Source of the DNA: a virus
DNA length: 29,561 bases
IMG/VR virus record: IMGVR_UViG_3300027792_000046
Location: 1 to 29,561 of that record
Reading direction: 5' to 3' (one strand)
Of the stretch, positions 598 through 29,093 are shown piece by piece. The translations under genes were made by a program, and so were the position numbers. How positions within the stretch are numbered: the first letter of the stretch is position 1; the number at the start of each line of letters is the position of its first letter. The notes under the pieces are model-generated. The model was not told the origin of the DNA. It did not search any database and worked only from the letters and a program-made list of their open reading frames with translations.

Positions 598-1032
598 TTA
601 TTCCACCTTTGTTGATGTAAATTGCCCGTTTGACCCCCGGGTTGGGGGTTTTTTAATTGGTTTCTTTTCAACTGGTTTTTTCTCAATTATCATTGCACTT
701 AATTCAGTGCAGGCAAATACTCCAATTGGTGCAATTGCATAGATGTAGACTTCTAATGCGTCCCGTGCTGCCACAGCATTAACGATGATGCTCGTGGCCG
801 TGAAGAAGGCCATAATCAGCAACGGTGCTTTGGTGTCTTTACCTATTTTACTGAAGTATACTCGGATGAACATTGAGAGTGCCATTGTCCCATCTACGGT
901 TAATGGGAAGAGCTCAGCAACAGCAATGCTGTGCATCATTGCTACGTGATACATTGCTCCGTAGGATACAGCCATACATACGAAACTCATGATGATTGTT
1001 CCTACCAGAGCCATTTTAAACTCTAGTTTCAT
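598..1032 (-). CDS. DUF2637-like four-helix membrane protein
   Basis: The protein (144 aa from ATG 1032) has four hydrophobic segments at about residues 7-28, 38-60, 69-90 and 97-115, then a Lys/Pro-rich cytoplasmic tail. The motif PLTVDGTMALS in the second segment matches the hallmark PLxVDG region of DUF2637, a family best known from actinobacterial plasmid and phage transfer-type (SpdB-like) membrane proteins. A GTG lies three codons upstream, but GTGAT next to ATG 1032 serves as the Shine-Dalgarno site and favours the ATG. The molecular role of DUF2637 is unknown; a role in envelope remodelling or exclusion is inference. Confidence 0.72.
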   Translation of the reverse strand: MKLEFKMALVGTIIMSFVCMAVSYGAMYHVAMMHSIAVAELFPLTVDGTMALSMFIRVYFSKIGKDTKAPLLIMAFFTATSIIVNAVAARDALEVYIYAIAPIGVFACTELSAMIIEKKPVEKKPIKKPPTRGSNGQFTSTKVE

Positions 1033-1065
1033 TGTTATCACTTTAAGAAAAAGAATTAAACGGGG

Positions 1066-3081: not shown

Positions 3082-3552
3082 ATGAAAGAGATTGAGTTGA
3101 CTTATGGGCAAGTTGCAGTGGTTGACGACAGAGATTATGAAGAGTTGAGTGAATACAAGTGGCATGCACGAATTCAATCATACACTGGGAAGTATAGAGC
3201 GAAGAGAGGTGGAAAACCAAAAGAAGTGGATATGGCACGATGGATAATGGATTGTCCTCCTCATCTTGAAGTAGACCACATAAACGGGGATTTACTTGAT
3301 AACCGGCGTAGAAACCTCCGGGTATGCACCCATAGTGAAAACATGCGGAACAGGAAACTCCAGAGAAATAACACCAGTGGGTATAGAGGGGTGTCTATGG
3401 TATACCCATCCAGGAGATTCACAGCCCAGATTTACGACAATAGGAGGAGAATACACCTTGGAACATTTGATACTGCAGAAGATGCTGCAAGAGCATATAA
3501 TGCGGCAGCAATGCAGCACTATGGTGAATTTGCAAGACTGAACGAAGTCTAG
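3082..3552 (+). CDS. HNH endonuclease with AP2 DNA-binding domain
   Basis: 156 aa. An N-terminal region (about 1-56) leads to an HNH nuclease core with DHING at residues 65-69, conserved Asn residues at 74 and 78, and a CTHSEN segment near 82-87. An AP2/ERF-type domain follows (about 100-154), with GYRGV, the GTFDTAEDAARAYNAAA helix and a terminal LN. This architecture is typical of free-standing phage HNH-AP2 endonucleases, which cut DNA site-specifically and often act as mobile homing enzymes. It has its own surroundings between two promoter-like AT stretches, consistent with a mobile insert. Confidence 0.92.
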   Translation: MKEIELTYGQVAVVDDRDYEELSEYKWHARIQSYTGKYRAKRGGKPKEVDMARWIMDCPPHLEVDHINGDLLDNRRRNLRVCTHSENMRNRKLQRNNTSGYRGVSMVYPSRRFTAQIYDNRRRIHLGTFDTAEDAARAYNAAAMQHYGEFARLNEV

Positions 3553-6796: not shown

Positions 6797-7029
6797 TGGG
6801 GTATGAGATCATCCGAACGCCAAAAGGGCGTATAAAGCGGGCCATGACCCGGTATTTGCAGGTGGTGTCTGCAGTTGACCGGGACTGGTATTTTGTAAAG
6901 AATGCGAATGGAACAATGTCCCCATCTGTGTGTGGGAACGCAGAGAAACTGGTGTGTGGATACGTGAAGACCCGCGACTGGCATCGTGGGTGTGACTGGG
7001 TGAACGTGTATAGGAGAGTTGATGATTAA
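6796..7029 (+). CDS. Small protein, second of a duplicated pair
   Basis: 77 aa, starting in a TGATG overlap with the previous stop. It shares a Trp/Tyr signature and the GYVKxxDW motif with its upstream neighbour but has diverged strongly between them, which fits an old duplication. It overlaps the start of the glycosyltransferase-like gene by 8 nt. Confidence 0.68.
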   Translation: MGYEIIRTPKGRIKRAMTRYLQVVSAVDRDWYFVKNANGTMSPSVCGNAEKLVCGYVKTRDWHRGCDWVNVYRRVDD

Positions 7030-7897
7030 AATGTCTCTTTTTGATTGTGTTAAAGAAGATTTCCGGGTATATCCGGAAGTGCTTGGGTATTATTACGCGA
7101 CTGACATTGCAGAGCATCCGGAGAAACTTGAAGCGATAAATTTGCACGACTTTGTGTTTATCTCATCTGATTATGCGATGCCGATACCTGGGTGCGAAGC
7201 GCATCATGTTATGACTTCAGCAGAGGAACCCGGGACGTATATGTGGTTGCAGCAGGACTATACGAACATGCTTACGATGCCATTTTCCGAATGGACAGAT
7301 GTCCCTACAGTCGGGTTTGTTGGCCGGTGCCCGGTGTTTGATATACCGACAGAGACCCCAGACGGAAGGATGGGGACTGTCAAAACGCTGCATCGCGGGT
7401 TTGAACACCGGTTGGGCGCACTTGAACATTTAAACAAATCAGATGAGATTTGTTGCGATTTTCATGTACGGTTTGCCCCGGCTGGAGATTCTGCAGGGTT
7501 TTGGAATGAACGCCACCCAGATTATAAACGGCATGGCCCGTTGTTTAAGACAAACATGCTGGCAAACCAGTATCAGGTATGTGCTCGGGGGAACGCAAAC
7601 TGGTCACTCCGGTTTTATGAAACGCTTGCGAATGGGAGAATCCCGGTGTATGTAGAGTCTGGGGGGATGACGGCGGCAGATTGGTATTACGGCAGGTTAC
7701 AAGATCGACTTGATGATGTCCCGTTTGTATATGTGAAAGACGTTGAAGATATTGAGTGGGAAGTTTTGAAGTTCCACAACACCATTGACAGCATGTCGGA
7801 GATGCAAAGCATGTGCAGGGACTGGTATTTTGAGAACTATTCTCCGGTTGCACAATGGACGGCGTTCCAAAAGAAGTTCGCGGAGTACATGAAATGA
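7022..7897 (+). CDS. Exostosin-family-like glycosyltransferase
   Basis: 291 aa from ATG 7022, which has AGGAGA at 4 nt spacing. The segment at about residues 193-213 (NWSLRFYETLANGRIPVYV) is the recognisable exostosin/GT47 signature, in which the Glu and the Gly-Arg-Ile-Pro-Val turn help bind the nucleotide sugar. An earlier VGFVGR turn (about 97-102) fits the start of the second Rossmann domain. The protein has no signal peptide, so it would act in the cytoplasm. It probably transfers a sugar to a glycan, lipid carrier or viral protein. Confidence 0.72.
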   Translation: MIKMSLFDCVKEDFRVYPEVLGYYYATDIAEHPEKLEAINLHDFVFISSDYAMPIPGCEAHHVMTSAEEPGTYMWLQQDYTNMLTMPFSEWTDVPTVGFVGRCPVFDIPTETPDGRMGTVKTLHRGFEHRLGALEHLNKSDEICCDFHVRFAPAGDSAGFWNERHPDYKRHGPLFKTNMLANQYQVCARGNANWSLRFYETLANGRIPVYVESGGMTAADWYYGRLQDRLDDVPFVYVKDVEDIEWEVLKFHNTIDSMSEMQSMCRDWYFENYSPVAQWTAFQKKFAEYMK

Positions 7898-8097
7898 CAG
7901 ACACCTGCAGTTTTTGCGAAAGTAACCTGGATGGGCACCCTGGAGAATTGCATGACATCGTCGTGGAGGGGTCTATATTCACGGATAGTATGTTGGTGGG
8001 TATAAGTATCGAACACAAGAACTTTTGCGATTTTAGGTGCCTCTATGGATACCTTCAGAATACAGTTGTGAACCAGGTATTCACTCCTGGTGTGTAA
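7894..8097 (+). CDS. Small Cys-rich protein
   Basis: 67 aa, ATGA overlap with the glycosyltransferase-like gene. CSFC at residues 5-8 and CDFRC at about 45-49 form two knuckles about 37 residues apart, consistent with a single zinc site as in MYM- or TRASH-like fingers. Last gene of the rightward chain. Confidence 0.65.
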   Translation: MTDTCSFCESNLDGHPGELHDIVVEGSIFTDSMLVGISIEHKNFCDFRCLYGYLQNTVVNQVFTPGV

Positions 8098-8116
8098 TTT
8101 TTAAGAATTGGTGGGG

Positions 8117-8156
8117 GTTCCCCGACCCCGGAATGCCCGTAACAGGGTCGGGAAAC
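8117..8156. other. Strong hairpin in convergent intergenic region
   Basis: Arms 8117-8128 (GTTCCCCGACCC) and 8145-8156 (GGGTCGGGAAAC) pair over 12 positions with one mismatch, around a 16-nt loop. It follows the last gene of the rightward chain by about 20 nt. It may be a terminator, an mRNA-stabilising end or part of a non-coding RNA. Confidence 0.55.
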
Positions 8157-8211
8157 AGCATACGAGCAAAACTATCGAGGTGTTTCCATTGAATATAAGG
8201 CCAAAGTCTAC

Positions 8212-8253
8212 CAAACCGAGGAACCGACATCTGCTGCCACGATGTCTGGTTTG
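8212..8253. other. Second hairpin in the same region
   Basis: CAAACC (8212-8217) pairs with GGTTTG (8248-8253), and inside it GACATC (8226-8231) pairs with GATGTC (8241-8246). Together with the stronger hairpin about 55 nt upstream this makes 8117-8253 a candidate structured RNA. No tRNA cloverleaf fits. Confidence 0.4.
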
Positions 8254-8303
8254 TGTCGAACCATCATTTCATCGCGGCATACATCTATTAGAAACGCAGG
8301 TAT

Positions 8304-8309
8304 AAAAAA
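8304..8309 (-). terminator. T-run after the histone-like gene
   Basis: Six A residues on the plus strand read as T6 on the minus strand directly after the histone-like stop codon, as expected of an archaeal intrinsic terminator. Confidence 0.45.
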
Positions 8310-8311
8310 GT

Positions 8312-8542
8312 TTAGTTGTTGGATTCAAGGGATTTCAGGTATGCATCCACGTCCTTTTTAAGAATCATGGTTCCATTGCGGTGTTCTGTGAACTGGAGTG
8401 CCCCGGTGAAGATGTTTTTGATATAATCTTCTGTCATGGTTATGACTGAAGTTACCGCTGCCTGTTCAACTCTGATGCCATCTTTCACATGTGCGAGTCT
8501 TGTAACTGTTGCCCGTGCGAGTTCGCTGGTCTTTTTTGCCAT
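8312..8542 (-). CDS. Virus-encoded archaeal-type histone-fold protein
   Basis: 76 aa. Over 66 residues it can be aligned by eye without gaps to methanogen histone HMfB: the N-terminal helix EL...RL, the L1 loop with RV in register, Ala and Glu in the central helix (TEDYIKNIF), the A-L/I-x-[FL]-x-x-H end of that helix, and the final I-x-x-x-D-[VI] helix (KKDVDAYLKSL). HMf-type histones dimerise and wrap DNA. The Lys-Thr of the L2 loop is changed (NGTMI), so DNA contacts may differ. It lies alone on the minus strand, lacks a Shine-Dalgarno site and begins about 26 nt from a palindromic TATA box. A CBF/NF-Y-like non-nucleosomal histone fold is the alternative. Confidence 0.78.
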   Translation of the reverse strand: MAKKTSELARATVTRLAHVKDGIRVEQAAVTSVITMTEDYIKNIFTGALQFTEHRNGTMILKKDVDAYLKSLESNN

Positions 8543-8567
8543 GTCTGTGTTATTTTGTAATTAAGCC

Positions 8568-8581
8568 ATATAAATTTATAT
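8568..8581. promoter_or_regulatory. Palindromic, probably bidirectional TATA element
   Basis: ATATAAATTTATAT is a perfect 14-nt palindrome that lies 26 nt from the histone ATG on one side and 29 nt from the terminase small-subunit ATG on the other. Archaeal TATA boxes sit about 26 nt before the transcript start, so both messages would be leaderless or nearly so. Neither gene has a clear Shine-Dalgarno site. Confidence 0.6.
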
Positions 8582-8609
8582 TACAGTGTGAAATTATACC
8601 TGGATAGAT

Positions 8610-9209
8610 ATGGACATTGATTTTTACACAAAAATAGACCAGGAACTTGCAAAAATCCCATACTGTTCGCCAAAATGTGGGTATTATATGGTGTGCCCGG
8701 TATGTGACCGGTCGAACACAGATACAGCACCGTGTGTATTGTTGTTACTTGAAGAGACACAGCGCAGGCGGTTTGTGAATTTGTATCTCCGGGGGAGGGA
8801 GGGGCTAAAGGCCGAAGCGACTGAACTCTTGTTTAACCTGGCTCGGAGACTTGATTTAAAACAAAATCCTGCTGACATGATAACATATATCGACACAATT
8901 CTCAAAATAGACCGGAGTTTTAAGATTGACCCACGGAAGGTAGTAGAAACACCAAAAGAAGAGCAGGAAGAAGCACCAGCACGGGTAGAAGTATCAGTCA
9001 CAAAAAGGGCGAAATCTAAAGATCCTGATGAGAAAATTGTGAGAAAACTTGAAAAAGAGTTGGATAATAATCCAGATTCGTTGTTTAATTCACCGGTTGT
9101 TGATGAAACGAAAGCAAAAATGAAGATTGGAGAATTTAAACTCCCGTTAGAAAAGAAAGTGATTGAGATTGCTGTTGATGGGCGGGCTGGGAGCGAGTTT
9201 GAGTTATAA
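8610..9209 (+). CDS. Probable terminase small subunit
   Basis: 199 aa directly upstream of the terminase large subunit, with a 1-nt stop/start overlap (TAATG). The N-terminal part carries CSPKC and CPVC (about residues 19-32), a zinc-finger-like site, then helices (about 45-110) that could form the oligomer core, a Glu/Lys-rich linker (about 112-160) and a short C-terminal tail that may bind the large subunit. The call rests mainly on position and size; small terminase subunits share little sequence. A zinc site in this protein is unusual. Confidence 0.6.
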   Translation: MDIDFYTKIDQELAKIPYCSPKCGYYMVCPVCDRSNTDTAPCVLLLLEETQRRRFVNLYLRGREGLKAEATELLFNLARRLDLKQNPADMITYIDTILKIDRSFKIDPRKVVETPKEEQEEAPARVEVSVTKRAKSKDPDEKIVRKLEKELDNNPDSLFNSPVVDETKAKMKIGEFKLPLEKKVIEIAVDGRAGSEFEL

Positions 9210-10651
9210 TGTCAGATCTTAAAATTGGGCTGCACGAAAATCAGATGGTGGTGTATCAATCAAAATGTCGGTTTATTTGTTTGAATTGTGGCCGGAGATT
9301 TGGCAAAACGTGGTTTGCGGCGGCGAAGGTTATTATATCGGCTCTTGCGAAGCCAAATGGGATATTTTGGTTGGTTAGCCCAACGTTTTCGCAGACTGAT
9401 ATTATGTGGAGAATGGTAGTGAAATTACTACCAAAAAAATATACAAAACAGATTTTCCTTGGAAAGTTGTGCATAGAACTTACAAATGGGTCTACAATAT
9501 GGGCAAAGTCTGCTGAAAAATACGACAACCTTCGTGGAGAGGGGTTAGATGGTGTTGTGCTTGATGAAGCAGCAATGATTCACCCGGATGCCTGGTTTAA
9601 GGTTATTAGACCGGCATTAATGGATAAACTTGGGTGGGCGATGTTCTGCACCACTCCCAGAGGGAAGAACTGGTATTATAAGTTGTATCTGAAAGGGGTG
9701 AAAACGCATTACAGTTATAACAAGAATTGGCAGAGTTTCACGTTTTCGTCGTATGATAACCCATTTTTGGAGCGGGATGAGTTAAATGAGATTGTCCAGG
9801 ATCTTTCAGAACTTGAATTTGAGCAGGAAATTTTGGCAATATTTTTGTCGGACGGTGGAACTGTTTTTAAGAATATTGATGCTTGTACACGTCGTCATAT
9901 ATCCGACGCCTACATACCGGGTAGAGTCTATGTTATGGGGGTGGATCTTGGAAGACACCAGGATTTCACTGTCATTGATGTGTGCGACACCGTTACAAAG
10001 GAACTTGCATATACAGAACGGTTTAACAGGACCGCTTGGTCCCATATCAAAGCACGAGTTAAGCATGTATATAAACAATACCACGGACCCCCAGTGTTTC
10101 TTGATACTACAGGAGTAGGCGATGCGATACAGGAAGATCTTGAGAAAGAGGGCGTGAATGTTGTAAGTTACAAGTTTACGCTTGAATCAAAGAAAGAACT
10201 GGTGAAGAGGCTGTCTATAGCCTTCCATAACTGCGAGATATTTATACCTGAAAACCAGAGTTTGAGAGAAGAACTTGAATCGTTTACATACGTGCAGACA
10301 GAGGCTGGGAACATTAAATATGGTGCTCCCAGAGGGTATTTCGATGACCAGGTGTGTGCTCTCATGCTTGCGAACTATGGAATGAATGGTGGGGTTGCAC
10401 TTTGTATTGGTGGGCTGGAAGAAGATCTTACTCAGGAAGAGTATGAGATTCGGATGGAGAGCGTTCGAGCTGGGAAACCCGTGGAGATTGTTTTAGATGA
10501 CGGTGATGATGGAAGTATTTTTGATTGGAATGGGGATGATATGTGGAATGATCCTGATGCTGGATATGTGGATGACATGTTTGCAGATGCGTATGGAGAG
10601 GTTGAAACGAATCCGCGACGATTTCGGCGTGGTGGATATGTCGAAGTGTGA
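9209..10651 (+). CDS. terL: Terminase large subunit (packaging ATPase-nuclease)
   Basis: 480 aa. The ATPase domain has Walker A GRRFGKT (28-34), Walker B VVLDE (116-120) and the coupling motif TTP (148-150). The RNase H-like nuclease domain has GVDLG with Asp 246, LDTTGVGD with Asp 299/305, and FDDQ with Asp 379/380, which fit the metal-binding acids. It pumps viral DNA through the portal into the prohead and cuts it. The acidic C-terminal tail (about 440-470) is a likely portal-contact region. This is the firmest virus hallmark in the window. Confidence 0.96.
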   Translation: MSDLKIGLHENQMVVYQSKCRFICLNCGRRFGKTWFAAAKVIISALAKPNGIFWLVSPTFSQTDIMWRMVVKLLPKKYTKQIFLGKLCIELTNGSTIWAKSAEKYDNLRGEGLDGVVLDEAAMIHPDAWFKVIRPALMDKLGWAMFCTTPRGKNWYYKLYLKGVKTHYSYNKNWQSFTFSSYDNPFLERDELNEIVQDLSELEFEQEILAIFLSDGGTVFKNIDACTRRHISDAYIPGRVYVMGVDLGRHQDFTVIDVCDTVTKELAYTERFNRTAWSHIKARVKHVYKQYHGPPVFLDTTGVGDAIQEDLEKEGVNVVSYKFTLESKKELVKRLSIAFHNCEIFIPENQSLREELESFTYVQTEAGNIKYGAPRGYFDDQVCALMLANYGMNGGVALCIGGLEEDLTQEEYEIRMESVRAGKPVEIVLDDGDDGSIFDWNGDDMWNDPDAGYVDDMFADAYGEVETNPRRFRRGGYVEV

Positions 10652-10674: not shown

Positions 10675-11418
10675 TTACCAGATGTGTTCTGGTTCTTTAA
10701 ATTCGGCATACCATGTTTCAAGTGCAAATGGCATTATTTCTGGGTCTATATTTCCATGGACCCAGTTTGGGAATTGTTGTTGTTTCCCGTTGTTTAGATG
10801 TGTGTATCGGTTCCATCTCCGGTTTTTGAATGCATATTTCATGTGGAAGTATGGGTATTGGGTCATGATGTATGAGGTTCCCCCTGTGACTCCTTGGTCG
10901 AGGTCCATGCCAGATATGGTTCGTACATACCCGGAGTGTTTACCGAATATTTTTAGGTGTGGGCATGGGAAATGGTGAAATCCGGTGTCTGGATTTTTGA
11001 TGATGCATTCGGATGTGTTGAGCATGTCCATAATAGGGAAGTATATCCCGTAATATGGTGGGGTTTCTTTGAGATTGAAATTGACGAACTGTTTCATGGG
11101 GATTGACATGAACTCGTCAATATCGAGATGTAATACCCAATCACACCCAGTTTTGTATGCAATTTGTAAAAACTTGTTTATTTTCTGGCTTTCTGGGGTG
11201 GTTTCTTTAAAGTATTCTGATTTTTGTGGTTCGGTGGTGTGGTGGTGGATGGTTGCTGTAGGGTGGGTGTATTCTTTGCAGATTTTTTCGGAGTTGTCTG
11301 TGGACCCGTCATTTAATAGGAAAATGTGTGAAAACTCCTCGAATTTTATGCTGTTTAACCATCGTGGTAGGAGCAATTCCTCGTTCCAGTATTTTGCAAT
11401 GAGCCCAATGTTATACAT
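10675..11418 (-). CDS. Glycosyltransferase, GT2-like fold
   Basis: 247 aa on the opposite strand, between terminase and portal. NDGSTDNS (36-43) is the nucleotide-sugar-binding turn of GT-A enzymes and HLDIDEF (97-103) is the DxD metal site. The remainder, with HMKYAF near residue 200, resembles the Glyco_tranf_2_4 group. There is no membrane segment. The enzyme would use nucleotide sugars in the cytoplasm. Its strand and position mark it as a separately expressed accessory gene, perhaps acquired, that changes host or virion glycans. Confidence 0.85.
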   Translation of the reverse strand: MYNIGLIAKYWNEELLLPRWLNSIKFEEFSHIFLLNDGSTDNSEKICKEYTHPTATIHHHTTEPQKSEYFKETTPESQKINKFLQIAYKTGCDWVLHLDIDEFMSIPMKQFVNFNLKETPPYYGIYFPIMDMLNTSECIIKNPDTGFHHFPCPHLKIFGKHSGYVRTISGMDLDQGVTGGTSYIMTQYPYFHMKYAFKNRRWNRYTHLNNGKQQQFPNWVHGNIDPEIMPFALETWYAEFKEPEHIW

Positions 11419-11514
11419 ATTTAATCATACCCGGTTATTTGTCATTAATTCTTTTGTCTGAAAATTACGAAATCATTTTATTAGTTCCCGGTGGTTTTTA
11501 TTAAGAGGCAGTCA
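11419..11514. promoter_or_regulatory. Divergent promoter region between glycosyltransferase and portal genes
   Basis: This 96-nt stretch separates the divergent genes and is AT-rich. TTTTTATTAA (11495-11504) matches the T-rich element seen before other late genes but lies too near the portal ATG for a leader-forming promoter. AGAGG at 11505-11509 is the portal Shine-Dalgarno site. Confidence 0.35.
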
Positions 11515-13314
11515 ATGGCTGATGTAATATCCGGGATATCAAAAAAAGAGCGAAACATATATGAAGAATTGGATAAGATTCCATCGGAACAACTGACTGA
11601 AATACTCATAAAGGCATTTTCTTCAAGCGAGGGGTTTACTCTTCCAACACCATCGTCAATTTCAACGAATTACGAACCGGAGATTGCAGATGCGAGGAGA
11701 TGGGACGAGTTTAGCGAGTGGGAGCGCGCAATACATCCAATATCTAATTATTATAACACTCTCGGCATAGCACGGCCATATTTTTCAAAGGCTGCGAATG
11801 ACGTGCTTGCAACGACCCCGTATTATTCTATTTGTGAGAAGTCTATCTGTGATTATACTGCCGCGCTGGAATTTGGGGTGTATGATAAAGATAATAATCA
11901 CGTCGAAGACCTTGATGAGTTTATTGATTTCCCAGGCCCGCATCTCACGTTTGGAGACATTGTAAAGAAGTCGCTCCCAGACCTTACCCGGTATGATGCC
12001 GGGGCATTGGTGAAGACATTTGATAGGAGGGGGAAGTGTGTTGAATTTGACTCTTTTTTGGGGACTGAATTTTGGAAGGAAATTGATAGGGTTCCTGTTG
12101 GTATTAATCTTGGGCACTTGCCTGCTGCGAAGCAGATTGGATATTACTCACACGGTCATGTACAAAGGTATTGGCAACGGTCTAGAACTGGGGTCTATGT
12201 TTCATTTCAACCTGATGAAATTGTATATATGTCGATGTATCCTCGTAATGACACTATATATGGAACCGATTGGATATCTTGTCTCAAAGCCCCTATCCAG
12301 TACCTTATCGATTCCACTCGGGCTGCAGGAAAGACATTTCAAAATGGAGTTGTCCCTTCCCTGGTCTATAAACACCCGCAGATTACTGATAGAAAACAGT
12401 TGATTCAACGACTTGCTGACTTGAAAGCAAATAATCAGGGCCCGATGAAGTTTGGGGGAACATTGCATTTGGTAAAGGACGAAGAGGTGGAGACACTTTC
12501 TCACAAACTCCATGATATGGAATGGCTTGAAGGCCAGAAGTTTATGGCACAACTGGTTTGGGCAATGTGGGGGTTCCAACCCCAGGAGTTCGTAGGGCAA
12601 TCACAGAATCGGGCAACTGCATATGTATCTCGTAACATCACGAAATCGAAGATGCTTTATCCGATTATGAAGTTTCTTGAGGTCACGTTTACCAGGGAGG
12701 TTCTCCCGTATCTTGATGGGTATACGAAAGGTATGCGATTTAAGTTTGAGGTTGAGCAGGATTTGGATGACACAATGAAGATTGCGGAGACTAAACTTGC
12801 TCAGTCACAGGCTGCAAAAACAATGTTTGAGATGGGAATCCGGAACCAGGATGCGGCAAGACTTGCTGGGCTTACGAAGGAGCACGACGTTGTCCAGTTT
12901 GAATCTATAAGTGTTCTTGACCTGAACCAGTCGCAGATGCTTGAAGGTGGGAAACCGTCTGAACCTAATAGAGGAAAGAAGACTGACCAGGGAACACCAG
13001 ATAAGAATAAAGGCGGAAGAGGGACACCAAAGTTTGGAGACAAAGAAGAACGGAGTGCTGGAATTAAGAAAGCAACCACAGAGATACGTCTTATAGGGGA
13101 TGACGGGGCAGAAATTACAATTGTGCCGTCTGGGCCATCGGTTACGACAAATCGAAAAGGGTGTGCTTCTGAGGTAGCCAAAGATATTACAAATGAAGTG
13201 AGGTCGATTACGAAACATCACCGATCCAGGATGAGAGACCCGGTAGTCTGGGATGCGGTAGTTGCGAAAGCAATTGAAGATTTTGATTTATCCGTTTTTA
13301 CAGGAGAACAGTAA
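11515..13314 (+). CDS. Portal protein
   Basis: 599 aa from ATG 11515, chosen because AGAGG lies just upstream; the frame extends 8 codons further. The protein shows the layout of phage portals: an N-terminal wing region, a central stem region and a conserved Trp/Gln-rich helix segment (LVWAMWGFQPQEFVGQSQNR, about residues 343-362), followed by FTREVLPYL. The C-terminal third (about 480-540) is Gly/Lys/Glu-rich and disordered, and residues 540-599 may contact terminase or scaffold. It forms the DNA-entry ring at one capsid vertex. It follows terminase with only the reverse-strand gene between them. Confidence 0.88.
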   Translation: MADVISGISKKERNIYEELDKIPSEQLTEILIKAFSSSEGFTLPTPSSISTNYEPEIADARRWDEFSEWERAIHPISNYYNTLGIARPYFSKAANDVLATTPYYSICEKSICDYTAALEFGVYDKDNNHVEDLDEFIDFPGPHLTFGDIVKKSLPDLTRYDAGALVKTFDRRGKCVEFDSFLGTEFWKEIDRVPVGINLGHLPAAKQIGYYSHGHVQRYWQRSRTGVYVSFQPDEIVYMSMYPRNDTIYGTDWISCLKAPIQYLIDSTRAAGKTFQNGVVPSLVYKHPQITDRKQLIQRLADLKANNQGPMKFGGTLHLVKDEEVETLSHKLHDMEWLEGQKFMAQLVWAMWGFQPQEFVGQSQNRATAYVSRNITKSKMLYPIMKFLEVTFTREVLPYLDGYTKGMRFKFEVEQDLDDTMKIAETKLAQSQAAKTMFEMGIRNQDAARLAGLTKEHDVVQFESISVLDLNQSQMLEGGKPSEPNRGKKTDQGTPDKNKGGRGTPKFGDKEERSAGIKKATTEIRLIGDDGAEITIVPSGPSVTTNRKGCASEVAKDITNEVRSITKHHRSRMRDPVVWDAVVAKAIEDFDLSVFTGEQ

Positions 13315-13315
13315 C

Positions 13316-13417
13316 ATGGCACAAGATTCGATAATTTTAGTTGATGGTGACGGGAACCCGGTGGGAATTTCGGGTAACCCCCTGTATTGTCAGGTGGCTT
13401 CACCGGAGGAAGAATAA
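13316..13417 (+). CDS. Mini protein duplicating the tail-fibre N-terminus
   Basis: 33 aa. MAQDSIILVDGDGNPVGISG followed by NPLYCQ aligns with the fibre N-terminus ([20 protein letters not shown], then NPLYIS), so this is a partial tandem duplicate. It starts 1 nt past the portal stop and ends in a TAATG overlap with the fibre start; its last codons supply the GGAGG site for the fibre. It may be a virion assembly peptide or a remnant that survives as the leader of the fibre gene. Confidence 0.6.
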   Translation: MAQDSIILVDGDGNPVGISGNPLYCQVASPEEE

Positions 13418-16400
13418 TGGCAGAAAGAGAAGTTATACTGATTGATTCAGATGGAGAGAGACTGGGAGTAGATGGCAACCCTCTATACATATCAGGGATT
13501 GTTGCTGTTGCTTCCCTTGTAGATCTTACAGATGTGAATGTGGTAGACCCGGCATCCGGGGATTATATTGGGTATGATGCAGCAACTGGGAAATACATCA
13601 ATAAACCAGTTATTGGCGCAGGGTTGGGAGATGTAACGGGCCCGAGTTCTGTAACAGATCGTGCAATTGCTATTTTTGATGATACCAGTGGAAAATCTAT
13701 TGCAGGTACTGAAATCCTGATTACTGAAGACAACGATTTGAATTTGCTTGGAAACCGGGTTTTGAATCTTGAATATCCGGTTTTGACGCACGAGCCTGCT
13801 ACGAAGGGGTATGTAGACCAATATATTCTGGGCATTTCTTGGCAGGAGCCAATTCTTTCAATAGAAGTATCTTCGCCTGAATCGCCTCCAGATAGGGCAC
13901 GGTATATTGTTGATGAAGGGGCGGTAGGCGACTTTATCGGGCATAGCGACGACATTGCAATTTGGCATGAAGACGAGGGGATTTGGTATTTTTATACCCC
14001 CGAAGATGGGTGGGCTTGTTATAATGAAGAACTCGATGCGGTAATGGTTTATAATGAGACTGACTCTGCATGGAGGAATATAGGAACTGGGGGGATTTCA
14101 GAAGCGCCATTAGATGGGTTTCCATATTTGAGGAAAGATGCAGCGTGGTTTAAATCTGGGGAATCTGGGATGTCGCATATTCCACCAGCGACTACAAATT
14201 GTTTGCTTGCGTGGAATGACACGCTTGGGCAATATGTAAAGAATGCTGAGTCTGGGGCATATGTTGAGAACGGGTTGTTTGTACAAACTCCGCATTCTGC
14301 GGGTGCTGGAGAATATATTTTAAAAACGTACGGAAGTCTTGATACACAATCTTATGCCGGGATATTGCAGATAACCCCATATCAATATCAGGGGGGAATT
14401 CTAAATGAGACAAATATCGGGTTTGTTGTAAATTTGTATAAATCCCAGGTGTTTTCCAAATTTGGTGGTGGGTTGTTAATTGCCGGTGGTGGAAGCGATG
14501 GAGATTTTGGAGTAGGGTCGGAAGATCCTAGGTTAATGTTAGTAATAAAACCCAGAAATTCGGTTTCTGTAATGGAAGTTTTGAAAGTTTATAGAGATGG
14601 GTTGGTTAGGTTTAAATATGGTATTTTACCTGCTACAATCAGTATTCCTGCAGGTCAGACGTATAATGTTAATGGGGTTCCGCACGGCCACGATGGGACG
14701 TATTTGAAACTTCTTGGCGGTGTAATGCAGGGTGCCATTAATACGAATGGCAACCGGATTACCGGGCTTCCAGAACCAGTTGATGGAACTGATGCGGTAA
14801 ATAAAGATTATATTTCGGGGTTGGTTCTAAGTATTTCATGGAAGCCATCGGTATTGTCAATTGAATCAACACCACCCGGAACAGATGGGCGATATTTGGT
14901 TGCTTCTACAGATACAGATGGGGTGTTTGTTGGGCACGAATCGGAAATTGCCACGTTGTCTGGGGCTACTTGGTCTTTTGAACCACCGGTAGAAGGTTGG
15001 GGTGTTAGTAATATTGATGATGGGTTTACGTATGTTTGGAATGGTGACGAATGGGTTCAACTTCCAGGTCTTGGTAGCCATTCGGCACTTCAGAATCTTA
15101 CTGGGACCGATGACCATACGCAATATGTTCATATTTCGCTTCCTAGAACAATTACTGGATTAATAACATTTGATTCTGTAGGAGTTCCGTTTGCAGTCAC
15201 GTCAACTTTAAAAGTAGATAATTTGAACGCGAATTATCTCGATGGTGCTTCAAAGGATGAGTTTGCAGATGTGGTACATGTTCATGGGTTTTCCACGTTA
15301 TCTGATTTTATGGTTGCAAGTCCCGTTGATGGGCAGGGGCTGATTTATGATTCAGATATTGGAAAATATGTCAATCAAGAAATCATTAGTTCGTTCTCAA
15401 TAGATCCGGATCATCAGTTTGTGGATGTAGCGTCAAGAGACGCTTATTTCATATATTACCCAGATGAGTTGGTTGATGGGCTGTTGATTGCGGTTGCATC
15501 CGGGTTCCAGCAATACGATTTGGATGATACGGCCTGGTATGACAGAACTGCAGTTATCCGGGGCCCACCTGGGGCAGATGGACGAGATGGTGTTGACGGT
15601 GTGGATGGAGCGACAGGAGATACCGGAGCACAAGGCCCGCAGGGAGAAGACGGCCCCGAAGGCCCACCTGGAAGTCCTGGAACTTCTATTGAGATGCAAG
15701 GTACGGTTGTTGCGTCAGGAGATTTGCCAGAATCCGGGAATGTTGTCAATGACGGGTATTATTGTGAAGAGGATGGCGATTGTTATGTTTGGACATTTGA
15801 AGAAATATGGGTCAACGTTGGCCCGATTGTAGGCCCACGGGGGTTGCAGGGTGTTAAAGGAGACCAGGGAATACAGGGGGTTACAGGAGCAACAGGTGCA
15901 ACTGGAGCAACCGGACCACAAGGTCCACAAGGCCCGATTGGGCTCACTGGTGCCAGAGGTCCAGCAGGTGAGGGGGCTGAATCGTGGCAGGCGCCAGTTG
16001 AAGATATAATAGACGACGTTCCTGGATTTCCGTTTGATTTTAATGACCGATTTTTAGTGTCTGCATCTCCTGATTCTGGTGGTGTATTTGCTGACAATGC
16101 AAATGCGGTTGTGACGTGGCTAGACCCCGGGGTTTGGAATATTGAGACCGCATTGCCGGGATGGGCATGCTATGTTCTTGAATCACAGATGTTGATGTAT
16201 TATGACCCCTATTTGGTAGCATGGACCGAAATTGTTGGGGCGGGTGGAATTGAGGAAGCGCCAATTGATGGGGATTCGTATGTTCGAAAAGACGCTGCAT
16301 GGGCAGTGGCATCCAATGTAAATGCAGATTGGAACTCGGTAAGCGGCGATTCCCAGATACTGAATAAACCTACATTGGGAACCGTTGCGTCATGGGATGT

Positions 16401-17883
16401 TGGAACTTCTGCAACCAATGTTTTACAACTCGACGCATCTGCGAGAATTCCGGCAGTTGATGGTTCTGCATTAACCTCAATAGGTTCAATAAAAGCAACA
16501 AATTTGACAATTGCAGTTCGCGCCGGAGAATATCTGCGGAAAGGGCAGGCGTGTTATATTTCTGGAACCAGTGCGGGAATTCCCCTTGCATGGAAAGTGG
16601 ATGTTACTACTCTGTCAAAATCACGGGTAATTGGGGTTGCTCAGTCTGATATGAACCCGGGTGATGCAACAATTGATGGATTTGTCCGGAGAGGCGGTGT
16701 TGTTACCGGTGTTGATTGCCAGACTTCCGGAACGGTTGCAGGGTATGTTAACCCATTACAGCAGACATGGGCGAATGGGGATCTGCTCTTTGCTCTTGGT
16801 GGTGCGAATGCCGGGGGGCTTACCAATGTCAGACCAACATCGGGTAGATCGGTAAAAGTCTGTTATGCAGTTAATGGTAATGATTCCACATGCACGTTGT
16901 TGGTTCACCCGATGGAAAACCCGGTGTGGATAACTTCTGCATCAGGTGAAAACGTGGTGCTCCGGCTTGGCGACGCTGCAGGAGTCAACAAAGTAAGTGT
17001 CCGGGATTATGCAAATGTAGAAGTTGCATCCATTGATTCAAATGGGAAATTTTATGGAGACGGAAGCGGTCTTACGGGTATTACATCATTGCCCAGTCAA
17101 ACTGGAAATTCAGGCAAGTTCCTTACCACTGATGGTACCGATGCATCGTGGGCAACTGTAGCATCGTATACCTTACCAACTGCATCTGCCGATACATTAG
17201 GTGGAGTCAAGATTGGTAGTGGAATTACTATTACTGATGGTGTAATAAGTGCAAGTGTTGGATCATCAATCGGATGGACTGCAGAGACTGCGTTTACTGC
17301 AACTCCTGCAAGCACATCAACACTTACGATGACAAGCGATAAAACCGCGTCAATCAAAGTTGGTATGGCCGTAAAATACACAATTAGCAGTGTCGTGTAT
17401 TACGGGGTTGTAACTGCAATAACGTCGAATTTAATGACAATTGCCGGTGCTCCAATGGGTGGAGATGTCACTGCATTGTATTATTCAACAAATCCTGCTC
17501 AAGTGGTTCAGGTTGATTTCTATGTTCCGGGCAAATTTGCGGATGCGGCAAATACGGCATTACTTGCATCAGATGCAAAGGTTAAGTTTGATTGGAACTT
17601 GCAGGAAGCAAGATTGGTTCAGATTAGGCATACTGTGTCTGTTGATGATTCGGGGGCAAACCAACCACGGGTCAATATGTCAGTTGGTGGATCTGCAGTA
17701 AGCACTTCAAACACGAATACGGGTGTCGCAGTTGCTGAAACGTGGAGTTCTACCGTAATTGATATTAACACGACAAATTATGTGGTCGCAAGGGATGCAG
17801 CAATTGAGGTTGTTACAGACGCAAATGGTTCTAACGATGATGCAAGTGATTTATCGGTATCTGGCATATTTGTGGTGATATAA
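13417..17883 (+). CDS. Collagen-like tail fibre with DUF2793-like modules
   Basis: 1488 aa; ATG 13417 has GGAGG upstream. The N-terminus repeats the mini gene before it. Three DUF2793-like modules are recognisable by the W/Y-rich order (SWQ or SWK, RYIV or RFLV, GW and W): about residues 140-226, 472-551 and 855-944. Between modules 2 and 3 lie two Gly-X-Y collagen-like stalks (716-757 and 806-853). [20 protein letters not shown] (about 448-467) and [17 protein letters not shown] are familiar phage fibre linkers. The C-terminal part (about 1290-1488) is Thr/Ser/Val-rich and beta-like, and is the likely receptor-binding tip. Role in host attachment is inferred from architecture. Confidence 0.9.
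15562..15687 (+). repeat. Collagen-like Gly-X-Y repeat, first stalk
   Basis: Fourteen uninterrupted Gly-X-Y triplets (GPP GAD GRD ... GSP GTS) form residues 716-757 of the tail fibre. Many positions carry Asp, unlike the second stalk. Confidence 0.9.
15832..15975 (+). repeat. Collagen-like Gly-X-Y repeat, second stalk
   Basis: Sixteen uninterrupted Gly-X-Y triplets form residues 806-853 of the tail fibre and include three tandem GAT triplets whose DNA units are near-identical. Such repeats can vary in copy number. Confidence 0.9.
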
Positions 17884-22552: not shown

Positions 22553-22597
22553 ATGACATTAAGACTTGCGGAGCAGAGTCTCCAGGGAGTATGGTAA
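22553..22597 (+). CDS. Micro-ORF (14 residues) before the capsid gene
   Basis: ATG 22553 has a strong GGAGG site about 11 nt upstream and its TAA ends one base before the capsid ATG. The product, MTLRLAEQSLQGVW, is too short to classify. It could couple translation of the capsid gene to the protease gene, or be a chance ORF that uses the capsid leader. Confidence 0.35.
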   Translation: MTLRLAEQSLQGVW

Positions 22598-22598
22598 C

Positions 22599-23957
22599 AT
22601 GACCTTTAAAGTCGGTGCGTCGGTAAATGGCGACGTAATATCAAAAGCGTCTTTTGGTGGGTATGGCATGTCTGGGTTGTTTGACCAGGCGGGTCTTGTT
22701 GGTGAAGCAATGTGGGCTGGCATTCCCGATGGAACTCCCATTGGGGTTAGCCAGTTAAAGATCCAGCAGAATGCGTTTAAGAAAGCAAAGGGCGAAGGTA
22801 AACAGATTGCTCTTATGCCGATGCTTCCACCAATTCAGGATGAGTTTGTAAAGAAAGCCATCTATTGTGATTCCTTCATGGACAAAGATGAAATGCAGCA
22901 TCTCCGGAAGGCATACAAGGAAGAGATGGATAAGATGACCCGTCAGTATCTTGATAAGGTCATCTCAAAAGCAGATACTACTGAAAGCAACCTGATGCAT
23001 GTCATTGCAGATGAACAGGTGACGTATCTGTATAAGCGTCCATACCCGTTCCAGTCTCTTATCCCTGTTGAAGCAAATAAGGGGAAGTGGGCTGCATGGG
23101 ATGTCATTGGTCCATACGACATTACCAGTGCATACTTCGGTAACGAAGATCCGGATCTGACTGAAACCAACATGAAAGCATACAACCGGTTTGACCGGAT
23201 TCGCTACATGTATACTGTTGGTCGTCTGACCAAGGCTGCACAGTTAGCAGGTCTTACCCAGATTCCAGCACGCGACCTTCGTGCAATCCGTGTTGATATG
23301 GCACAGGACGCAATGCGGGCACTCCGTGAACGTTCCATGCTTGGTGTGACCAGAAACCTGCAGAGCGTTGCAAACACGTTTGAAAATGCAGGTCCACTTG
23401 AGTATCCAGGTCTTGCAGAAATCATCCGGTCAAACACAAAGACTGGTGCTCTCGGTGACAGCACCTGGATTAATGCTGCGGACGTTGGCGGCATCAAGAC
23501 GTTTACTGATATCAACTTTTATCTTGACGAAGTTTACAGTAAGATGGTTCTCTACGGAATGAGACCGAATCTTGCATTATGTGACTACAAGACCTTTGGT
23601 CTGATTCGTCGTGGTATGACTGATTTCATCCGGTATATTGGAGAGCCTGTAAAGACTCTGGTGCCTGGTGTTTCGAAGATTGACCTGGTGTTCCCGAACG
23701 AGGGGGCTCTTCCACTTGTTCCGCATCCGTTCATGTCAATGGTTGCAGGAGACAATGGGGCAATCATGCTTGCTGACACCCGTCTGCTTGCACGGAGAAC
23801 TCTTTGGCAGGATACCTACGAACAGTTAGCCAACATTAATACGTCTGACAAGTTTGTCATTTCGTCTGCAGAGACTGTGATTGACAAGTCTGGTGTTACC
23901 GAGAATGACTCGCTACACGGCGGCCTGTTTGGTATTACCATCAAAGGGAGGGTGTAA
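22599..23957 (+). CDS. Major capsid protein, HK97 fold
   Basis: 452 aa from ATG 22599, with CAGGGAG just upstream. Position after the protease/scaffold gene, length and composition fit an HK97-fold capsid protein: an N-terminal arm and helical region (about 1-130), a P-domain-like helix (RAIRVDMAQDAMRALRERSM, about 229-248), and a C-terminal A-domain-like part with VPHPFM (about 376-381) and TDKF-like ends. Its codon use is noticeably rich in CTT/CTC and GTC-type codons relative to nearby genes, as expected of the most expressed virion protein. It forms the icosahedral shell. Confidence 0.85.
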   Translation: MTFKVGASVNGDVISKASFGGYGMSGLFDQAGLVGEAMWAGIPDGTPIGVSQLKIQQNAFKKAKGEGKQIALMPMLPPIQDEFVKKAIYCDSFMDKDEMQHLRKAYKEEMDKMTRQYLDKVISKADTTESNLMHVIADEQVTYLYKRPYPFQSLIPVEANKGKWAAWDVIGPYDITSAYFGNEDPDLTETNMKAYNRFDRIRYMYTVGRLTKAAQLAGLTQIPARDLRAIRVDMAQDAMRALRERSMLGVTRNLQSVANTFENAGPLEYPGLAEIIRSNTKTGALGDSTWINAADVGGIKTFTDINFYLDEVYSKMVLYGMRPNLALCDYKTFGLIRRGMTDFIRYIGEPVKTLVPGVSKIDLVFPNEGALPLVPHPFMSMVAGDNGAIMLADTRLLARRTLWQDTYEQLANINTSDKFVISSAETVIDKSGVTENDSLHGGLFGITIKGRV

Positions 23958-28003: not shown

Positions 28004-28510
28004 ATGGCAGATGCATATAATAACCGTAGAGCATTTTTCGCGAACTACGGTTCTATGACTTTGGTGATTGCCGACGATTTAGGCGCCGACAGCACTGAAG
28101 TCGAAGTCGCTGCATTAAAGGGGATTACAATTACCCCGAAGTTTGAGCATGTGACTTTATTTGGTATGGAACGTGTTACCCGTGCTGCGGTTGCAAAGCA
28201 TTCTCTTGCGGTTGACGTAAGTGTTGAAGTTGCAATGTGGAACCCAGATTCTGATATCATTCTCCAGGGAGTTCTTCTTGGTCATGAAACCGATGATGAC
28301 ATTACTGAAGATAACATGAATAATGTGAACTGGAAGAACAAGGTTGCCAGGTTTAACATTACCATGGCAATGCTGGATACAGATGGAGAAAAAACGGTGA
28401 CTCTGAAAGCAGAAGATGTGTATTTCGAGTCTGTTCCATATGAAATGAAAGAGAACACGTTCATTTCCCGTAGCCTGTCAGGTACTGGAACTTCAATTGA
28501 GATTACATAA
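28004..28510 (+). CDS. Tail tube protein, copy 1
   Basis: 168 aa. Beta-rich with the conserved first segment MADAYNNRRAFFANYGSMT, a central KGITITPKFEHVTL and a C-terminal YFESVPYEMKENTFISRSL. The placement after the connectors and before the tail chaperone fits a major tail tube protein, which polymerises into the hollow tail shaft. It is very similar to the next gene and 21 residues shorter, because it lacks a loop insert and a tail. Confidence 0.8.
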   Translation: MADAYNNRRAFFANYGSMTLVIADDLGADSTEVEVAALKGITITPKFEHVTLFGMERVTRAAVAKHSLAVDVSVEVAMWNPDSDIILQGVLLGHETDDDITEDNMNNVNWKNKVARFNITMAMLDTDGEKTVTLKAEDVYFESVPYEMKENTFISRSLSGTGTSIEIT

Positions 28511-28523
28511 GGAGTGACAAAAA

Positions 28524-29093
28524 ATGGCAGATGTATATAATGACCGTAGAGCGTTCTTTGCGAACTACGGTTCTATGACCATGACTGTTGCTTCCTATAC
28601 TGGGACGGACTTGAATCAAGCCACTCCAGCTGCAACTGTAGAGGTTGCAGCACTGAAAGGTATCACAATCACGCCAAAGTTCGAACATGTGACACTTTAT
28701 GGTATGGAACGAGTCACTCGTGCGGCTGTTGCAAAGCACTCGCTCAATGTTGATGTGAGCGTTGAAGTTGCAATGTGGAACCCTGACTCTGACCATATCC
28801 TGAAAGGAGTTATGCTTGGTCGGTACGACCCTGCAAGTGCGATTAATAAAACGAATATTAACGAAGCACGGTGGAAAAACAAGGTTGCCAGGTTTGTCAT
28901 CCAGATGGAGATGATTGATACCGATGCACTCCGGAAAGTGGCTCTTACCGCTTCTGATGTGTATTTCGAATCAGTTCCATACGAGATGAAAGAGAATGAG
29001 TTTATCTCTCGTAACTTATCCGGAACCGGGAAATCTGTGTTTGTTAAAACATATACCCGTGCGTCAACTGAAGATGAATGGGCAGAACTGTAG
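28524..29093 (+). CDS. Tail tube protein, copy 2
   Basis: 189 aa, about two thirds identical by eye to copy 1; the DNA of the first 56 nt differs at only a few sites, so the duplication is fairly recent. Insertions are a short loop after residue 26 and a C-terminal extension (TRASTEDEWAEL). GGAGTGA precedes its ATG. Either copy could be the main tube protein and the other a tip or decorated variant. Confidence 0.8.
   Translation: MADVYNDRRAFFANYGSMTMTVASYTGTDLNQATPAATVEVAALKGITITPKFEHVTLYGMERVTRAAVAKHSLNVDVSVEVAMWNPDSDHILKGVMLGRYDPASAINKTNINEARWKNKVARFVIQMEMIDTDALRKVALTASDVYFESVPYEMKENEFISRNLSGTGKSVFVKTYTRASTEDEWAEL

Follow-up and report, generated by a model that had tools for sequence, protein, structure and literature searches.

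Whether a tailed virus of archaea carries a histone of its own, and what such a protein would do in the cell, is the question raised by a short ORF in IMG/VR virus record IMGVR_UViG_3300027792_000046. The window analysed here is the whole stretch of 29,561 nucleotides taken from the start of that record. An earlier, sequence-only reading of the window had described positions 8,312 to 8,542 as an archaeal-type histone gene of a tailed virus. That description was followed up by profile searches, structure prediction, comparison with related viruses and residue-by-residue comparison with HMfB.

The histone gene, its promoter and its virus

The proposed 76-residue ORF is present and lies on the minus strand (8542..8312), the strand having been left unstated in the earlier reading; the plus strand has an internal stop in the same interval. 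The translation product, MAKKTSELARATVTRLAHVKDGIRVEQAAVTSVITMTEDYIKNIFTGALQFTEHRNGTMILKKDVDAYLKSLESNN (76 aa), has a predicted pI of 9.1 and a net charge of about +1.7. The pI of the viral histones is 9.1–9.3, basic and close to that of HMfB (9.6). The gap-free alignment to HMf histones, originally made by eye, was reproduced with HMfB at an offset of 5, with a score of 41 versus a shuffle mean of −14 (sd 8.9, z = 6.2), and none of 20,000 shuffles of the same composition reached 41. The RV of loop 1 (R24 V25), the terminal-helix pattern I60-x-x-x-D64-V65 and the divergent loop L2 (HRNGTM in the viral protein versus HAGRKT in HMfB) were all found as described.

A search with the large terminase subunit (TerL) retrieved two related viruses, L005 (78 %) and L006 (71 %), both encoding homologues of the histone with about 44–56 % identity (44.6 % and 55.6 % in tblastn; taken over the alignment, the two values are 53 % and 45 %). 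The gap-free alignments of these homologues with HMfB gave z = 6.9 and 3.3. In both viruses the histone gene has the same location and orientation as in the window and diverges from a TerS-like gene and TerL. Contig G003, 99.9 % identical over 16 kb, represents the same virus as the window. Since homologues occupy the same syntenic position in two related viruses, the histone gene is, as judged from sequence, genuine and conserved and no accidental ORF. A helical ORF arisen by chance, or a decaying gene without function, would agree with the window protein alone staying under the curated Pfam and NCBIfam cut-offs, but such a reading is scarcely credible in view of the z of 6.2, the conserved promoter and the distribution of substitutions in the trio of viral histones (38–44 of 72 at third codon positions versus 15–31 at first or second ones), and it is in the main refuted by the three homologues of 44–56 % identity kept in the same place and on the same strand.

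The histone gene forms a unit by itself, with a TATA-type promoter of its own and apart from the late operon. The TATA-box-like element TATAAATTTATATG (8567..8580, minus) precedes the histone start codon by about 28 nt, and comparison of the upstream regions showed its position to be conserved in the three viruses. Being nearly palindromic, it could act for the divergent TerS/TerL genes as well. A T-run directly after the histone stop (8304..8310, minus), read from the sequence, is a candidate archaeal terminator; no bacterial-type stem-loop was found at the histone 3' end.

The tailed nature of the virus was borne out by terminase and portal genes recognised by profile. Between the histone and TerL lies a conserved gene of 199 aa (8610..9209, plus), a putative small terminase by position, which gave no family match in Pfam or PHROGs and whose homologues are situated directly upstream of TerL in G005 (64 %) and G002 (26 %). 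The terminase large subunit (9209..10651, plus; PF03237 9e-19, phrog_2 3e-47) and the portal protein (11491..13314, plus; PF04860 6e-20, phrog_12 9e-21) follow. The probable major capsid protein (22566..23957, plus) was assigned by position, size and conservation, the only profile match being a marginal one to a major head protein (phrog_9953, E 0.1); of the terminase, portal and HK97-type capsid set expected in the class Caudoviricetes, the first two are thus recognised by profile. This gene defines the virus group, with 87–89 % in the histone-bearing relatives and 43–59 % in relatives without a detected histone.

Other genes of the window were also recorded. A family 2 glycosyltransferase (10675-11418, minus; PF13704 4e-13) separates TerL from the portal gene and is encoded on the opposite strand, and since the TerL-portal gap in G005 is only about 60 bp it looks like a moron inserted here. 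The product of the ORF at 3082-3552 (plus) is an HNH endonuclease that also has an AP2 domain for DNA binding (PF13392, PF00847), and it is probably a homing endonuclease. The ORF at 13387-17883 (plus) encodes a probable tail fibre of 1498 aa with collagen-like G-x-y stretches. Tandem paralogues at 28004-28510 and 28524-29093 (plus), starting with MADAYNNRRAFFANYGSM and MADVYNDRRAFFANYGSM, are probably duplicated structural (tail) proteins. A 292-aa protein (7019-7897, plus) is kept in both relatives and has no Pfam match; its motif ANWSLRFYETLANGRIPVYVESGG resembles by eye the C-terminus of fucosyltransferases (GT10). A DUF2637 membrane protein is encoded at 598-1041 (minus; PF10935 9e-10) and is 77 % conserved in G005.

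The host is very probably archaeal, as indicated by an MCM helicase with archaeal matches together with the TATA promoter. The helicase (PF00493, 2e-75) is encoded on G003, which reaches beyond the window, and is found also in both relatives. All 16 phage records matching MCM were viruses of archaea, and the plasmid records matching it were all archaeal among the matches listed. For the MCM and integrase searches the controls gave signals in all 14 genomes, so that only matches over the cut-off were used. No integrase was found, so the virus is probably non-integrating. Genome contigs searched for a host or provirus with the histone profile and MCM yielded no relative, provirus or close MCM, and no CRISPR link to a host was found.

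Family assignment and predicted structure

In Pfam the window protein matched PF00125 (2e-4) and PF00808 (6e-3), followed by CENP-T, Bromo_TP and TFIID-20kDa, and in NCBIfam the archaeal histone model was the sole match (6e-5); taken alone, the protein does not reach the curated cut-off of PF00125, PF00808 or the NCBIfam model. The L006 homologue passed the PF00808 cut-off (24.5 bits, cut-off 21.4). A profile of the trio searched against PDB sequences gave H3 (7d69) as the best match (5e-6), and the best 60 listed were all histones; TAF12 also occurred among PDB sequence matches. Profile-profile comparison of the trio with four archaeal HMf histones aligned 61 columns without a gap (E 1.3e-5, probability 81). 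A PHROGs search with the viral histone gave nothing. In Pfam, NCBIfam and the PDB sequences only histone-fold families were matched and no other family did better, in agreement with the earlier assignment.

The label 'archaeal-type' stands only in part. The archaeal histone model was the one match in NCBIfam; on the other side, the RKT motif and the R-D clamp, which almost every archaeal histone has, are missing from each of the three homologues, and the best PDB match is H3. A special affinity to H3 is not pressed, the pairwise scores to L039, L038, L037 and HPhA being about as high. A tree of 15 rows grouped the trio with support 98/99 and did not settle its place.

AF2 run on the viral trio alone predicted three helices with weak scores (pLDDT 68, pTM 0.38), and a fold search with this model returned no significant match. 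A second alignment of nine sequences, comprising the trio and six canonical histones from other viral contigs, gave helices at residues 10-17, 27-51 and 62-74 (pLDDT 89, pTM 0.69), a model that was helped, and may be biased, by the canonical histones in the alignment. The first of these helices, alpha-1 (8492..8515, minus, from the AF2 secondary structure), contains R15, the counterpart of the HMfB minor-groove anchor R10. The top fold matches of the nine-sequence model were an H3 variant (9r1d), HPhA, HMfB, HMfA and H3, all of them histone-fold chains, with TM of 0.71–0.79 by query length and Foldseek E of 5e-3 or worse. The VIA Z of this model reached 8.4 with H3/CENP-A chains, a level that for helical folds can mean only a common arrangement. 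Among predicted viral proteins (BFVD) the best structural matches were giant-virus histones. The short-long-short arrangement of three helices expected of a histone was thus found in the model based on the nine-sequence alignment with its canonical histones, and a three-helix histone fold with a full alpha-3 is predicted. Because the Z is not decisive and the added histones may bias the model, the fold assignment rests on sequence and structure together; on both, the viral protein is very probably a histone-fold protein.

Comparison with HMfB and other viral histones

The trio was compared with HMfB position by position with the residue criteria of PMC6136690; the RKT motif in L2 (RxTxxxxD) is defined in PMC11390915 and PMC13260811. 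The motif H54-R-x-G-T-M59 (8366..8383, minus) replaces H49-A-G-R-K-T54 of HMfB in all three viral homologues. With R52-K53-T54 changed to G57-T58-M59 the RKT motif is lost in each of them, versus an intact HAGRKT in six of six canonical comparators, and among the viral histones compared here this L2 replacement is, by alignment, unique to the trio. The position of HMfB R52 is Gly in all three viral proteins and that of D59 (D64) is kept; with RKT lost there is no R52-D59 clamp. D59 as a rule takes part both in the R-D clamp and in the dyad bond to H49; since it persists without R52, the dyad role seems to be the one preserved. R55, invariant and two residues upstream of the R52 position, could be a candidate substitute clamp.

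The minor-groove anchor HMfB R10 corresponds to R15, invariant in the trio, and R19 to position 24, which is R, K and R. At the dimer-dimer positions H49 (H54) and D59 (D64) are kept in three of three, L46 is changed to F and L62 to A. The core alanines A24 and A43 are kept, the stacking residue G16 is replaced by D, P and P, and further HMfB core positions are changed (L28V/A, L32T/A). The trio resembles HMf-type histones (HMfB, 1A7W and 5T5K; HPhA, 1KU5) in having one histone fold, about 70 aa long and aligned without gaps, its R/K anchors, the H49/D59 pair, the two alanines, the basic pI and the single-gene unit, and differs from them in the G-T-M of L2, the missing clamp and T54, the D/P at G16 and the substitutions at L46 and L62. 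Because RKT, the R-D clamp and G16 were looked for and each was found altered, the protein is not filed as a canonical HMf-type histone; on its residues it is a divergent histone-fold variant.

More distant relatives of the virus, with related capsid genes (43–59 %) or related terminases, gave no histone match, an absence that is provisional, several of them being fragments and one search having been run without a positive control. With the histone in the trio only and no match in these relatives, one acquisition followed by long retention is suggested. In the virus of L040 the slot that holds the histone in the trio is filled by two ORFs which by eye resemble DNA methyltransferases (L051:5894-6802 and 7778-8656), upstream of the TerS-like gene. 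A tblastn search of 50,697 phage records with P0001 and HMfB returned nothing credible, two Klebsiella phage matches at E 5 being dismissed.

This is not the only tailed virus to carry a histone. With HMf histones as queries, six IMG/VR contigs with canonical RKT histones were retrieved, which include those at L039:9992-10180, L037:9995-10198, L038:10001-10198 and L035:9995-10201. Like the window, some of these contigs have terminase or portal genes: L039 comes with both terminase subunits and a portal, L035 with a tape measure, a head protease and a portal on its contig, and portal matches were also obtained on the contigs of L036 and L037. The histone is in matching gene order in L037 and L038. 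By pairwise score L039, L038 and L037 are among the nearest to the viral histone, but the L039 terminase shows no detectable similarity to the terminase of this virus. That other tailed-virus contigs have canonical histones suggests that histones were acquired more than once.

In the open-access literature searched, no mention of a histone in an archaeal tailed virus was found, and the histones described there for prokaryotic viruses are of the alpha-3-truncated phage type. These 'phage histones' (Schwab et al. 2024, PMC11390915) likewise have a tailed-virus-encoded histone fold that lacks the RxTxxxD motif, with an alpha-3 truncated to 3–4 residues and a C-terminal helical tetramerisation domain. 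In the protein studied here alpha-3 is full length in the model (62-74) and the chain ends two residues later, with no extra domain, which sets it apart from that type. Giant-virus histones (Marseilleviridae, Medusavirus; PMC11222145), the source of the top BFVD matches, are also virus-encoded histone folds; they are of eukaryotic type, single, doublet or repeat, belong to viruses of eukaryotes, and in several cases nucleosome-like particles have been shown. Histones are known as well from Borgs (PMC12660748), huge extrachromosomal elements that occur in methane-oxidising archaea; the capsid-like proteins of Borgs are similar to those of sphaerolipoviruses and not of tailed viruses.

Possible role of the viral histone

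The protein is regarded, with confidence evenly balanced, as a virus-specific variant of the archaeal single-domain histone acting in the following way; the compaction of viral DNA, mixing with host histones and bias of transcription suggested in the earlier reading are likewise inferred. It would form homodimers, or heterodimers with the host histone, and the dimers would pair via the retained H49/D59 dyad contact. DNA would be bound through alpha-1 and L1 with a weaker grip by L2; loss of RKT could make DNA binding weak or even abolish it. With D or P in place of G16 and a changed grip by L2, short or open particles would be expected and no closed hypernucleosome. As a DNA-binding dimer or tetramer the protein would most likely cover viral DNA during replication in the cell, so that this DNA is ordered and still accessible to transcription and packaging, or else join host chromatin and cap or loosen it.

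This last use, taken as the main function, would make the protein an antagonist of host chromatin: paired with the host histone in a heterodimer, it would serve as a capping or poison subunit that shortens host hypernucleosomes and biases transcription to the virus. The retained dimer core and H49/D59 contact, combined with the loss of the L2 clamp, the L2 Thr and Gly16 in all three proteins, make the pattern of a capping subunit, 'capstone' variants have been proposed for archaea (PMC11894787), and the gene has its own promoter apart from the late operon. The core differences at L28 and L32 could, however, block mixed dimers, and this function is considered rather doubtful. A viral 'saboteur' histone that gave up the L2 clamp and kept the dimer-dimer contact in order to terminate or loosen host hypernucleosomes is judged unlikely.

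The lost RKT motif, the weak CENP-T, Bromo_TP and TFIID-20kDa matches and the presence of TAF12 among the PDB matches would also fit a transcription or replication factor in the style of TAF, NF-Y or NC2, with a protein partner or promoter DNA as its target instead of coating DNA in general. Several canonical HMf-type comparators match the same TAF and CENP models, so these matches do not discriminate, and with the core-histone and archaeal-histone models scoring best, the minor-groove anchors R10/R19 kept, a basic protein and no extra domain, a factor of this kind is quite unlikely. That the protein is packed into virions to condense the genome, as in Marseilleviridae, is very improbable. Its basic character and a gene adjoining and diverging from the packaging genes in all three viruses would suit a virion protein, but the monomer has a net charge of only about +2, which is little for condensing DNA, and adjacency to the terminase is no evidence of packaging. 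Terminase-driven tailed virions hold their DNA as a tight spool and are not known to contain histones.

Under the preferred reading of a virus-specific histone variant, the viruses of the trio seem to supply the infected cell with a modified DNA-packing protein of their own. The trio keeps the minor-groove anchors and the dyad contact and loses RKT and the R-D clamp, and so provides a natural test of the roles of the individual histone contacts. It also makes conflict between virus and host over chromatin in archaea directly testable.
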